Positions 37,455-61,732 of a stretch of DNA of 64,000 bases are shown here, one piece after another. Origin of the DNA: Peribacillus simplex. Lineage in GTDB: Bacteria; Bacillota; Bacilli; Bacillales; DSM-1321. Within the stretch, counting starts at the first letter, position 1; every line of letters starts with the position of its first letter. The DNA lies in the NCBI RefSeq assembly GCF_900156045.1, contig NZ_FTMX01000001.1, forward strand, positions 744,001-808,000, in the 5' to 3' direction. The translations under genes were made by a program, and so were the position numbers. The notes under the pieces are model-generated. The model was not told where the DNA came from, ran no database searches, and worked only from the letters and a program-made list of their open reading frames with translations.

Positions 37455-38126
37455 ATGTCACAAAATGTAGCAGGTTTAATTGACCACACGTTATTAAAAG
37501 CAGATGCAACCAAAGAGCAAATAAAGGTGTTATGCGAAGAAGCGAGAGAGTATAACTTTGCTTCCGTATGCGTAAACCCAACTTGGGTGAAATATGCAAG
37601 CGAACTTTTGGAAGGTTCAGAAGTGAAAGTTTGTACGGTCATCGGCTTCCCTCTAGGTGCAACCACACCGGAAACCAAAGCTTTTGAAACGAAAGACGCC
37701 ATCTCCAATGGCGCTCACGAAGTCGATATGGTAATCAATATCGGCGCATTGAAGGACAAGGATGATGAGTTGGTGGAGCGGGATATTCGTGCTGTTGTAG
37801 CGGCATCCACTGGTAAGGCTCTTTCAAAGGTGATCATTGAAACTTCTTTATTGACTGATGAAGAAAAAGTCCGTGCATGTGAATTGGCCGTAAAGGCAGG
37901 AACGGATTATGTGAAAACATCAACTGGTTTTTCTACCGGCGGAGCGACTGTTGAAGATATCACGCTTATGAGAAAAACGGTTGGCCCGGATATCGGTGTC
38001 AAAGCTTCAGGCGGAGTCCGCAACACGAGTGATGCCCAGAAAGTGATTGAAGCTGGTGCTACAAGAATTGGAGCGAGTGCAGGTGTCTCCATCGTAAAGG
38101 GCTTAACGGCTGATTCCGATTATTGA
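37455..38126 (+). CDS. deoC: Deoxyribose-phosphate aldolase
   Basis: Cleaves 2-deoxyribose 5-phosphate to acetaldehyde and glyceraldehyde 3-phosphate in deoxynucleoside catabolism. 223 residues: [35 protein letters not shown] and the Schiff-base lysine in [22 protein letters not shown] site. Monocistronic here between two terminators; in B. subtilis deoC sits with nupC and pdp elsewhere, so this location differs. Confidence 0.96.
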
Positions 38127-38163
38127 TTTTAAGAAGGGACCGTATAATAAGTCCCTGAAAATA

Positions 38164-38208
38164 AAAAAGGCGGAGAAAAATATTTTATTTTTCTCCGCCT
38201 TTTTTTTT
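38164..38208 (+). terminator. Intrinsic terminator after deoC
   Basis: AAAAAAGGCGGAGAAAAAT pairs with TTTTTCTCCGCCTTTTTT. Its T-run provides the 8-bp target site of the adjoining MITE copy. Confidence 0.92.
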
Positions 38209-38211
38209 ATT

Positions 38212-38430
38212 GGCTCTTTTCGTAAAGATTGTTGTTTTTAAAACGAAACGAATTAAGGTTGATTGGAGCGGAAGTGCGAGACTCCTGCGGGAGCAGCGGG
38301 ACAGGTGAGACCCCACAGGCGTTTACGCCGAGTAGGCTCACCGCCCGCCCCGCGGAAAGCGAGCATCTGGATGGGAAATCAACCACACTGCACTACTTGG
38401 TAAATAGCAACAAAGTATGCGAAAACAGCC
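38212..38430 (+). mobile_element. MITE-like fold-back element, copy 1 (219 bp)
   Basis: Begins GGCTCTTTTCG and ends CGAAAACAGCC, an 11-bp terminal inverted repeat with one mismatch, continuing inward as an imperfect repeat (TTGTTG on both arms). It is flanked by perfect 8-bp direct repeats TTTTTATT (38204-38211 and 38431-38438). Inside, GGTTGATT / AATCAACC and GCGGGACAGGTGAG / CTCACCGCCCGC can pair, so the whole unit folds back on itself. No transposase is encoded, so it must move in trans. A second copy lies at 61513-61732 in the same orientation, differing at roughly a dozen positions. GC-rich core unlike the surrounding DNA. Confidence 0.88.
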
Positions 38431-38671
38431 TTTTTATTACTTCCATAAAAAAAATCGGTAATTGAACTGGTGATATCCCATGCCTTTTTATTCCATGAAA
38501 AAAGAGGACCCGTATCATTTTTGGAACCAATGAATTTGTGGATGTAATAAATATTAGGGGGTAATCAAACAGGGAGTTAACATCGTTCTCCAATAAAGGT
38601 TTGATGATTTTGAAATCAGCTGCTGTTAGATCGAGTGGTTTGAGCTTATTGAAAAACCTACCAGTAATCAT
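38393..38671 (-). CDS. Doubtful ORF running into MITE copy 1
   Basis: A 92-codon frame with AAGGATGA before its ATG (MITGRFFNKLKPLDLTAADF). Its last 12 codons and stop lie inside the MITE, so if it were a real gene its tail was changed by the insertion. No family recognised and no neighbour supports it; it may be chance. The rest of 38431-38754 holds only the hairpin listed next. Confidence 0.2.
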   Translation of the reverse strand: MITGRFFNKLKPLDLTAADFKIIKPLLENDVNSLFDYPLIFITSTNSLVPKMIRVLFFHGIKRHGISPVQLPIFFMEVIKRLFSHTLLLFTK

Positions 38672-38711
38672 TCATCCTTGCAGCTACATATGATATCCAA
38701 TCTTCCCACGA

Positions 38712-38762
38712 AGCTGTCCTAAATGAAAGTCTCTAATGACTTTTGGACAGCTCCTTATTTTT
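38712..38762 (+). terminator. Nested hairpin with T-run, convergent side of yqeW
   Basis: AGCTGTCC (38712-38719) / GGACAGCT (38745-38752) with an inner AAAGTC / GACTTT stem, followed by CCTTATTTTTTT on the plus strand. It would stop plus-strand transcripts before they enter yqeW from its 3' end. Confidence 0.6.
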
Positions 38763-39687
38763 TTAAGTGTGGCCGGTGCACCAAAAGAATGAGGTTGGAG
38801 AATTGCCTTGCGAATGGCAAGACGGCCAAAGAAGTCAAGATATTGAAAATGACACTGGCATGGGCCAGCTGTGTCCCCCTGTTTTCGGTAAAAAAGGCAG
38901 CAGTGCTTTCCAGGTTGTCCACAAAAGGCAGGAATGCGGCAACCCCGATGACGTTAAGCCAAATATGTGCATAAGCTGTGAAGGCAGCTTGTCTGCCGGA
39001 ACCGATGCTCGCCATGTATCCGGTGATGCAAGTGCCAATATTCGATCCGAGCATGATGACGATTGCGGAGGAGACGGATAACTCCCCATTCATCAAAAAG
39101 CTCATGGCTATCCCGATGGTTGCCGAACTGGAGTGAATGAGTGCTGTCAATAATATCCCGGCTAATAGGGCATAGCTCATGTGGCCCTCTATGTAATGGA
39201 TGAGCGTTTGTATGGATGGATAGGCAGCAATCGGCGTCGATAGCGTTTTAAAACCACTCATCGCCGCGAAGATGGCCGAGATTCCGATCAGGGACATCCC
39301 TATGCTTCTCGGTAATGTTTTTGGCATGAAACAAAGGAAAGCGCCGCTTACGACACCGGGAATGATCCAACGATCCAAAGAGAAGGTCATGAACTCTGCT
39401 GTAAAGGTCGATCCGATATTCGTTCCAAGAATAATCCCGATTGTTTGCGGGAATGTTAAGCTTCCTGCGGAAACGAGGCCGACCGTCATGACCATGACCG
39501 CCGAGCTGCTCTGCAGGATCCCGGTAAAGATGGTTCCGGCCATGAAGCCCTTCCATGGCTTATCCGTAACCTTTGAGAGAAAAGTTTTTAATGCTGCACC
39601 GGACATATTGAACAGTCCGATTCGTAAAACCGACATACCCGCCAAAAATATCGCGATGAATAAAAGGAATAAAAATAGCTCGTGCAT
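38755..39687 (-). CDS. yqeW: Na/Pi cotransporter family protein YqeW
   Basis: 310 residues, eight or more membrane helices. It carries the two inverted QSSSA/HSSSA repeats of this family (TGILQSSSAVMVMTVGL and TALIHSSSATIGIAMSF) and the GTNIGST / GSNIGTC companions that form the substrate and sodium site. Predicted phosphate uptake coupled to Na+. The ATG at 39687 follows GAGGTGACA; a GTG three codons upstream is the alternative. Opposite in direction to deoC and rpsU. Confidence 0.9.
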   Translation of the reverse strand: MHELFLFLLFIAIFLAGMSVLRIGLFNMSGAALKTFLSKVTDKPWKGFMAGTIFTGILQSSSAVMVMTVGLVSAGSLTFPQTIGIILGTNIGSTFTAEFMTFSLDRWIIPGVVSGAFLCFMPKTLPRSIGMSLIGISAIFAAMSGFKTLSTPIAAYPSIQTLIHYIEGHMSYALLAGILLTALIHSSSATIGIAMSFLMNGELSVSSAIVIMLGSNIGTCITGYMASIGSGRQAAFTAYAHIWLNVIGVAAFLPFVDNLESTAAFFTENRGTQLAHASVIFNILTSLAVLPFARQFSNLILLVHRPHLKK

Positions 39688-60992: not shown

Positions 60993-61526
60993 ATGGATGA
61001 GATGAGAAAGAAAATCATCATTCAAGAAATAAACTCCTGGAAGGAAAGTCGTATGCTTCCGGAGCAATATTGTAATTACCTGCTTGCATTATACTGTCAA
61101 GGAGAACTGCCGCCATCTAAATCGATTAAAACCGAGAGCAAAAATAGCGACATCTTCTCTGGGGTGCTGATTGGGGCCCTTTTTGCATTTATTGTATTTT
61201 TGAATTATTTTACTGAAATACCCATAAGAATGCAAATGCTTATGACAACAATTTCAATACTTGTCTTTTGGCTTGCGGTCCGCCGCTTTAACGGCAGGAA
61301 AATCATTTTTCAAATGTCGTTGATGGGAATGGCGCTATCATTGCTTTTATTAACTGTCAGTTTTGCGGAATTCATGGCACCTGGCAAAGTGGGAATCCTT
61401 TTTATCTTCTTGTTCATTAATTGCGGACTCTGGATTTTAATGGGCACTAAACTGAAGCTGCTTCATTTTTCCATAGCGGGAGGCCTGGGAGCACTTGTCA
61501 CTCTTTACTTTTGGCTCTTTTCGTAA
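60993..61526 (+). CDS. Unrecognised five-helix membrane protein with MITE-supplied stop
   Basis: 177 residues. A soluble N-terminal stretch (QEINSWKESRMLPEQYCNYL, about 1-45) precedes about five membrane helices; no family recognised. GAGGATGTGA precedes the ATG; GTG 60984 is an alternative. Its last codons TGG CTC TTT TCG TAA come from MITE copy 2. Removing the element and one target duplicate restores TTA TTA ATA TAA, so the ancestral end was probably TLYFLLI in place of TLYFWLFS. The change affects only the final residues, so the protein is likely still functional. Confidence 0.7.
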   Translation: MDEMRKKIIIQEINSWKESRMLPEQYCNYLLALYCQGELPPSKSIKTESKNSDIFSGVLIGALFAFIVFLNYFTEIPIRMQMLMTTISILVFWLAVRRFNGRKIIFQMSLMGMALSLLLLTVSFAEFMAPGKVGILFIFLFINCGLWILMGTKLKLLHFSIAGGLGALVTLYFWLFS

Positions 61527-61732
61527 AGATTGTTGTTTTTAAAACGAAACGATTTAAGGTTGATTGGAGCGGAAGTGCGAGACTCCTGCGGGAGCAAGCG
61601 GGACAGGTGAGATCCCACAGGAGTTTACGCCGAGGAGGCTCACCGCCCGCCCCGCGGAAAGCGAGCATCTGGAGGGGAAATCAACCACACCACTTTACTT
61701 GGAAAATAGCAACAAAGTAAGCGAAAACAGCC
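61513..61732 (+). mobile_element. MITE-like fold-back element, copy 2 (220 bp)
   Basis: Same ends as copy 1 (GGCTCTTTTCG ... CGAAAACAGCC) and a perfect 8-bp target duplication TTACTTTT (61505-61512 and 61733-61740), different from that of copy 1. Internal arms GGTTGATT (61558-61565) and AATCAACC (61679-61686) pair. It inserted at the 3' end of the preceding gene and provides its stop codon. No transposase inside; GGCTCTTT ends with 8-bp duplications would fit an ISL3-like transposase acting in trans, which is inference. Confidence 0.9.

Follow-up and report, generated by a model that had tools for sequence, protein, structure and literature searches.

The 219-bp element at positions 38212-38430 of the window (the whole stretch of 64,000 nucleotides analysed here, from Peribacillus simplex) is a MITE; it transposes as a single unit and duplicates 8 bp of its target. 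Judged from sequence, it is a chimera, IS1595-type ends enclosing a core common to IS1182 elements, because its ends match IS1595 while its core occurs in IS1182 elements and is not IS1595 sequence. The best explanation, which we hold with good confidence, is a non-autonomous IS1595-ended MITE that is mobilised in trans and shares its hairpin core with IS1182 elements.

The element breaks the T-run of a terminator, with a perfect copy of TTTTTATT on both sides (38204-38211 and 38431-38438, + strand). The terminator lies 3' of an ORF at 37455-38126 that, from reading alone, we take to be deoC. Its hairpin and T-run, the insertion target, occupy 38169-38211 (+ strand; arms GGCGGAGAAAAA at 38169-38180 and TTTTTCTCCGCC at 38188-38199) and are uninterrupted in relatives. 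Between the termini GGCTCTTTTCG...CGAAAACAGCC, the element comprises a left terminal region of IS1595 type (GGCTCTTTTCGTAAAGATTGTTG..., 38212-38246, + strand), the conserved hairpin core (38257-38383, + strand; 108 bits with covariance model R2), and a right terminal region of IS1595 type that reads GGCTGTTTTCGCATACTTTGTTGC inward (38390-38430, - strand). This end type is named T1. A 78-aa ORF spanning the element (38229-38465, + strand) is taken as spurious; variation in the core takes the form of compensatory base-pair changes and of single-base insertions or deletions. The second copy in the window, at 61513-61732 (+ strand; R2 match 61558-61685), has its own duplication, TTACTTTT on both sides. 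The earlier note had described the first copy as MITE-like, with a perfect 8-bp duplication in the T-run of the deoC terminator, and both that description and its status as one of two copies hold.

Mobility is seen in the copies of the same genome and in the empty sites of relatives. The genome (6.08 Mb) gave 40 scored element matches among 212 first-look candidates, and 800 kb of the window's contig holds 25 full T1 copies. Perfect 8/8 duplications flank 18 of the 25, 7/8 duplications flank three, and poorer ones flank four, of which three form one head-to-tail array. When left and right flanks were drawn at random from the copies as a control, 8/8 was reached in 1/25 and 7/8 in 3/25. A+T content is 93% in the 18 perfect duplications and 64% in intergenic DNA. 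A search with the left and right flanks of the window site joined together covered 36 genomes of the genus, and 14 loci were read over the junction. One of the 14, G061 of the same species, is filled by a diverged copy in the same place, and the element is absent at the other 13. Seven of these (G030, G026, G028, G022, G031, G034, and G020) have an intact empty site, in which the target, a single copy of TTTTTATT in G030, runs straight into a recognisable right flank. At the remaining element-free loci the right flank is diverged or a different sequence (G012, G016), and these show absence only. The flanking 8-mers and the empty sites thus both bear out the earlier view that the element transposes as a unit. 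With terminal inverted repeats, a target duplication, unit mobility, many copies, and no transposase of its own, it has the features of a MITE.

Contig C23 of genome G000 also carries head-to-tail arrays of core-bearing units with a spacing of ~212-220 bp (349376-349939, 369194-369694, and 676376-677019), which include three successive T1 elements. Elsewhere on this contig, two T1 elements (240759-240923 and 395878-396040) are without the apical half of the core, the loss lying near the same point in each. Because both have lost it yet retain 8-bp duplications (the second as judged by eye), the apical half may be dispensable for movement.

The source of the ends was sought among full transposons. 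IS1595 was searched in 150 genomes of the order, of which 36 had a match, and 30 loci were examined. GGCT-like paired ends with 7-8 of 8 bases duplicated were found at nine of the 30. T1-type ends are present in three full IS1595 elements (L406, L410, and L428), and sister-type ends, GGCT(C/G)TGTTAAA or a close variant, in L405, L409, L412, L417, L418, and L423. In L428, one end agrees with the window element's left end at 23/25 bases and the other at 22/25. The right terminal region equals one end of L410 at 22/25 bases, and the left end of a decayed insertion sequence in the own genome equally well. The proteins tested are IS1595 by Pfam and NCBIfam (L410, NCBIfam IS1595, E=2.6e-60). Since the end search also gave pairs of unrelated sequence (L402, L424, L426, L427, and L430), support for IS1595 rests on the GGCT-type ends and not on the search score.

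The decayed element (C11:350185-352199) is the one IS1595 found in the own genome, with ATTTTAAA on both sides and no core. Its transposase is in two pieces, 61-62% identical to that of L410, with a gap and a stop, and its right end matches worse (15/25 bases, the first 10 exact). Apart from this copy, the match to IS1595 ends is one between different genomes, and a search of the 800 kb gave no long element that has T1 ends but lacks cores. The same ends and duplication length therefore occur in L406, L410, L428, and the C11 copy. To judge from these ends, the parent family is IS1595, and the one IS1595 copy of this end type found in the own genome is broken. Because that copy is broken, the family has probably ceased to move by itself.

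An ISL3-like parent had been proposed in the earlier note, together with a full transposon of matching ends and 8-bp duplications. Such transposons do exist, but in IS1595 rather than ISL3, and descent from an ISL3-family element is now very improbable. ISL3 elements likewise have 8-bp AT-rich duplications, start with GG(C/T)TCT, and have TGTTG further in. However, those of the order with pairable ends read GG(C/T)TCT, nine bases, TGTTGGGGT (overall GGTTCTAAGTCAAATGTTGGGGT or similar), so that the spacing to TGTTG is unlike that in the window element, whereas IS1595 ends match the window ends over up to 23/25 bases. A PF01610 (ISL3) search of the own genome gave 0 matches. ISL3 transposase occurs in 11 of 36 genomes of the genus, and it is absent from all seven that have a T1 match of at least 95% among the matches listed (G000, G001, G005, G020, G024, G030, and G031). 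The core was found in 0 of 59 ISL3 loci. The ISL3 parent was rejected after these searches (PF01610 in the own genome, the genus, and the order), the reading of ends, and the search for the core.

The part of the element common to most distant genomes is the core, a GC-rich imperfect hairpin of ~128 nt (GTTGATT...AATCAAC). For alignment A1, 162 cores were reduced to 105 non-redundant ones and then to 99 rows, six badly aligned rows being left out (L120_2392, L152_3426, L152_5178, L129_7510, L130_6268, and L131_6147). The default consensus fold of A1 has 7 pairs only, and its covariation term is -0.29. The 41-pair structure used here comes from RNAalifold, run on gap-trimmed columns with RIBOSUM scoring; its pairs were then counted on A1, which is aligned by sequence only. 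This hairpin is 86.0% paired across the 99 non-redundant cores and 38-45% paired when slid. Its covariation score is 0.294, against 0.129 +- 0.005 in shuffled alignments (0/500 as high) and at most 0.094 when slid. Changes on both sides of a pair occur in 28 of 41 pairs compared with 24.4 in shuffles, a modest excess (3/500 as high). G-U and A-C cells number 143 and 101, excluding one conserved T-G pair; as these are not strongly different, they do not separate an RNA from a DNA hairpin. The earlier note had recognised the core as a scattered repeat but missed that it is a covarying hairpin common to IS1182-family elements and other MITE types.

Palindrome-correcting mutation perfects hairpins without selection. 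By cruciform formation or template switching it could have made the compensatory changes in a core of no function, and the similar folding of both core strands (z -3.1 and -3.3) agrees with this, as does the tendency of hairpins to become more perfect unselected. The core nevertheless keeps its internal mismatches, namely the motifs GACTCC...GGAAAGCG and a T-G pair present in 94 of 99 rows; we regard an origin by mutation alone as unlikely.

Far-diverged cores have compensated changes in the same helix, such as CTGCAGG/CCTGCGG and CTGGTGG/CCACCGG. They come from two bacterial families, f176 (L247-L253 and L265-L268; 2-53 matches per genome) and f182 (L226, L234-L236, L244-L246, L257-L259, and L262-L264; 9-20 matches per genome). 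Nothing in Rfam reached the gathering score in the region 37900-38800, and on eight core loci Rfam gave only a purine riboswitch in L140 of Halobacillus litoralis (2899-2999), which is near several cores and outside them.

The same core lies beside IS1182 transposase genes in three bacterial families. At L371, on a Peribacillus plasmid, a transposase of intact length (NCBIfam IS1182, E=1.5e-140) has its start codon ~85 bp from the core, and the termini read ...TTTGTCTACAGTCTG beyond the core and CAGTTTGTAGACAAA at the opposite end. Matches to this protein define 13 loci, nine of which have a core within 700 bp. The core turns its 5' side toward the gene or gene piece in eight of these nine, at a distance of 75-102 bp in seven and of 198 bp in L244. 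The nine loci are non-independent, most being of one genus and several having transposase pieces only (L058, a C-terminal piece; L049, also C-terminal, whose 3' end is toward the core). At L246 the nearer core is reversed, and a second core there fits the orientation. The same layout, with full-length genes, occurs in two other bacterial families of the class: L381 (f182, overlapping L246; IS1182 E=6.9e-146, 60.5% identical to L371) has the end ...TTGTCTACAGTCTG, and L393 (f176; 558 aa, NCBIfam IS1182 E=1.9e-135) has its core 89 bp off and the end ...ATGTCCCAGCCTC. In L371, L381, and L393 the core adjoins the start of the transposase gene and has its 5' side toward it. The end CAGACTG is common to L371 and L381, and that of L393, GAGGCTGGGACAT inward, is also the end of the core-bearing MITEs L071, L106, and L110, between inverted flanks. 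Cores were found at two of 30 IS1182 loci at large and at one of 30 IS1595 loci (L420, two weak matches). Because just 2/30 IS1182 loci at large carry it, the core seems not to be a general part of IS1182, and borrowing could have run in either direction.

Other MITE ends also surround the core. These are GAGGGCACTGAA, with a perfect 8-bp duplication (L126), GAAGACTCAGTTTCGAGA (L092 and L138), and GCGACGTAACT (L159 and L165). Of the 53 core matches in the 800 kb, 28 are outside full T1 elements, one of them in an internally deleted T1, and several non-T1 cores adjoin CTGTAGACAAAC ends. On a tree of the cores, labels of end type (each based on one or two matches to ends no more than 220 bp away, which leaves 132 of 268 cores unlabelled) change 24 times, where the least possible is 6 and the shuffled mean is 58.6; the tree has few columns and many unresolved forks. 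The pattern of labels suggests repeated exchange of ends around the core.

Across species, 39 of 42 pairs of adjacent cores less than 1 kb apart are divergent, three are tandem, and none is convergent, while 11 pairs more than 1 kb apart follow no orientation rule. Truncated or weak R2 matches (L083, L096 at 1-63, and L143 at 7348) were left out of this count. Divergent pairs with both 3' sides outward are seen in L081, L136, L092, L128, L159, L139, L100, L138, L165, L228, L263, and others. Core pairs in the own genome, counted from the match list, are divergent in five cases, tandem in nine, and convergent in one, the tandem arrays blurring the rule there. By eye, no transposase-like gene lies between divergent cores at eleven loci, and a locus layout like that of REP transposases was rejected on this ground. 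The distant core pairs of L069 and L111 have only other genes between them.

These orientations bear on another possible origin, in which the core would be a mobile hairpin in its own right and would insert into the ends of transposons. Its own arms, GTTGATT/AATCAAC, are present in many copies, and it is found with several end types, as such a hairpin would be. Its orientation is, however, nearly fixed both to the IS1182 gene (clear in 8/9 loci, and in L381 and L393) and to the partner core (the 39 divergent pairs among 42), and this origin is quite unlikely, somewhat more so than a functionless palindrome.

Some match is present in 50 of the 61 genomes searched, the own genome included. The earlier note had likened the core to sequence scattered between genes in many Bacillaceae and often mis-annotated as short ORFs. 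A pattern scan of public genomes agrees with the first part, giving at least 114 stretches that are by record title nearly all Bacillales, and at least one copy is indeed annotated as "hypothetical protein" (NZ_CP069400.1). The titles outside Bacillales among the stretches listed are Pisciglobus halotolerans (1) and Arthrobacter beigongshangensis (1); the latter (L164, NZ_JADHDX010000001.1) has a typical core, and its name or assembly may be wrong. Under strict filters, model R2 matched 4 of 398 genomes in a phylum sample, all of class Bacilli and the own genome included, and 121 of 398 in a class sample. Copy number reaches 121 to at least 150 in nine of 16 chosen genomes and at least 150 in seven of the 16. 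Within the window's genus the core is patchy, three genomes having 0, 0, and 1 matches compared with at least 137 in five others searched.

Plasmids carry the repeat as well. DNA related to the element is in 15 of 72,556 plasmid records, none covering more than 80% of it, and core matches also occur on Priestia plasmids. Plasmids of Bacillus subtilis (L368) and Paenibacillus urinalis (L369) hold a near-identical zwf-gnd-glucose-6-phosphate isomerase segment with an interrupted core. That nearly the same core-bearing segment sits in plasmids of two genera points to spread of the repeat by plasmid transfer. Viral carriage of the core has no support, since 0 phage records carry the element's DNA, and an IMG/VR pattern scan gave two matches, of which the sequence examined is G+C-rich and unlike the core.

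The sites of T1 elements are biased in orientation. In the 800 kb, T1 is in the sense orientation at 10 of 12 sites between co-directional genes (12/14 copies, three of which form one array), and elsewhere in the genome in 10 of 13 cases. Overall, 20 of 25 sites are sense (one-sided binomial 0.002, with the tandem array as one site); the genes in these counts are mechanical ORFs. In Sutcliffiella horikoshii (L088, 3794-6601), three sense cores occupy successive gaps around glycolytic genes that, from their protein starts, we presume to be cggR, gapA, pgk, and tpiA of the glycolytic operon.

The bias could mean that the core is a host regulatory RNA (an attenuator, stabiliser, or RNase site), carried around by MITEs and retained by the host. 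The covarying structure, the sense orientation at 20/25 sites, and the three sense cores between the glycolytic genes of Sutcliffiella would all fit. Upkeep by the host is at odds with the patchy presence in the genus (0, 0, and 1 matches versus at least 137 in five others) and with the window site, where only one of the species read has the element. A host role of this kind has a small chance of being correct.

For the IS1595-ended chimera, the mechanism may be as follows. An IS1595-type transposase would move the MITE in trans, producing 8-bp AT-rich duplications. In its IS1182 setting, the core most likely serves as a structured leader and keeps down the expression of transposase from read-in transcripts: the complementary core strand would be the leader of transposase transcripts entering from outside, and may lower their expression. 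Within MITEs, the core would be a passenger or a transcription-tolerant filler. That the sense bias of the MITEs reflects avoidance of the complementary core strand upstream of host genes is a guess, possible but doubtful. A broader reading, to which we give slightly less than an even chance, is that the core is a structured module passed between unrelated transposon families across class Bacilli as a useful transposon part, where it might insulate the transposon from host transcription or control transposase expression. Its carriers are IS1182 elements, whose termini are of two kinds, IS1595-type MITEs, and MITEs that have at least three end types besides these.

IS1595 insertion sequences and the MITEs derived from them have the same ends, 8-bp AT-rich duplications, and a small non-coding derivative; the window element differs in its interior, which is the core shared with IS1182 and not IS1595 sequence. 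IS1182 insertion sequences have the same core between transposase gene and terminus, but their termini differ, with no 8-bp duplication at L371 (by eye) and 3/8 bases at L158. Intergenic stem-loop families named Bhal-1 (B. halodurans) and Sta-1, Sta-3, and Sta-4 (S. aureus) appear in an excerpt of one source (PMC2267715); by that description, they may belong to the core family as distant members. The bcr1 element of the Bacillus cereus group is, in excerpts, an intergenic MITE with secondary structure and, by the title of a paper cited there, specific to that group (PMC2267715, PMC3733652). As so described, it resembles the window element in being an intergenic structured Bacillus MITE. BOX and RUP elements are structured. 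They are repeats of Streptococcus pneumoniae (excerpt of PMC3049150). By description they are, like the core, intergenic and present in many copies, in a different genus. REP sequences and BIMEs often stand as inverted pairs in intergenic DNA. REPs are described in an excerpt as palindromic units of 20-40 bp tied to tyrosine transposases (PMC3733652). The core is like them in its palindromic and paired layout and differs in its length of ~128 nt and its DDE-type partners.

No description of the core family was recognised in the open-licence literature searched, including by core sequence. The MITE is of a known kind, and what is new is its chimeric make-up and the structured core shared between transposon families. 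MITEs are usually regarded as shrunken copies of a single parent; here, the ends and the interior match different transposon families. The core also accounts for a common repeat, which can enter annotation as a hypothetical protein, and with the covariance model R2 this repeat can be masked or studied. Should the hairpin benefit its carriers, transposons would share working parts.
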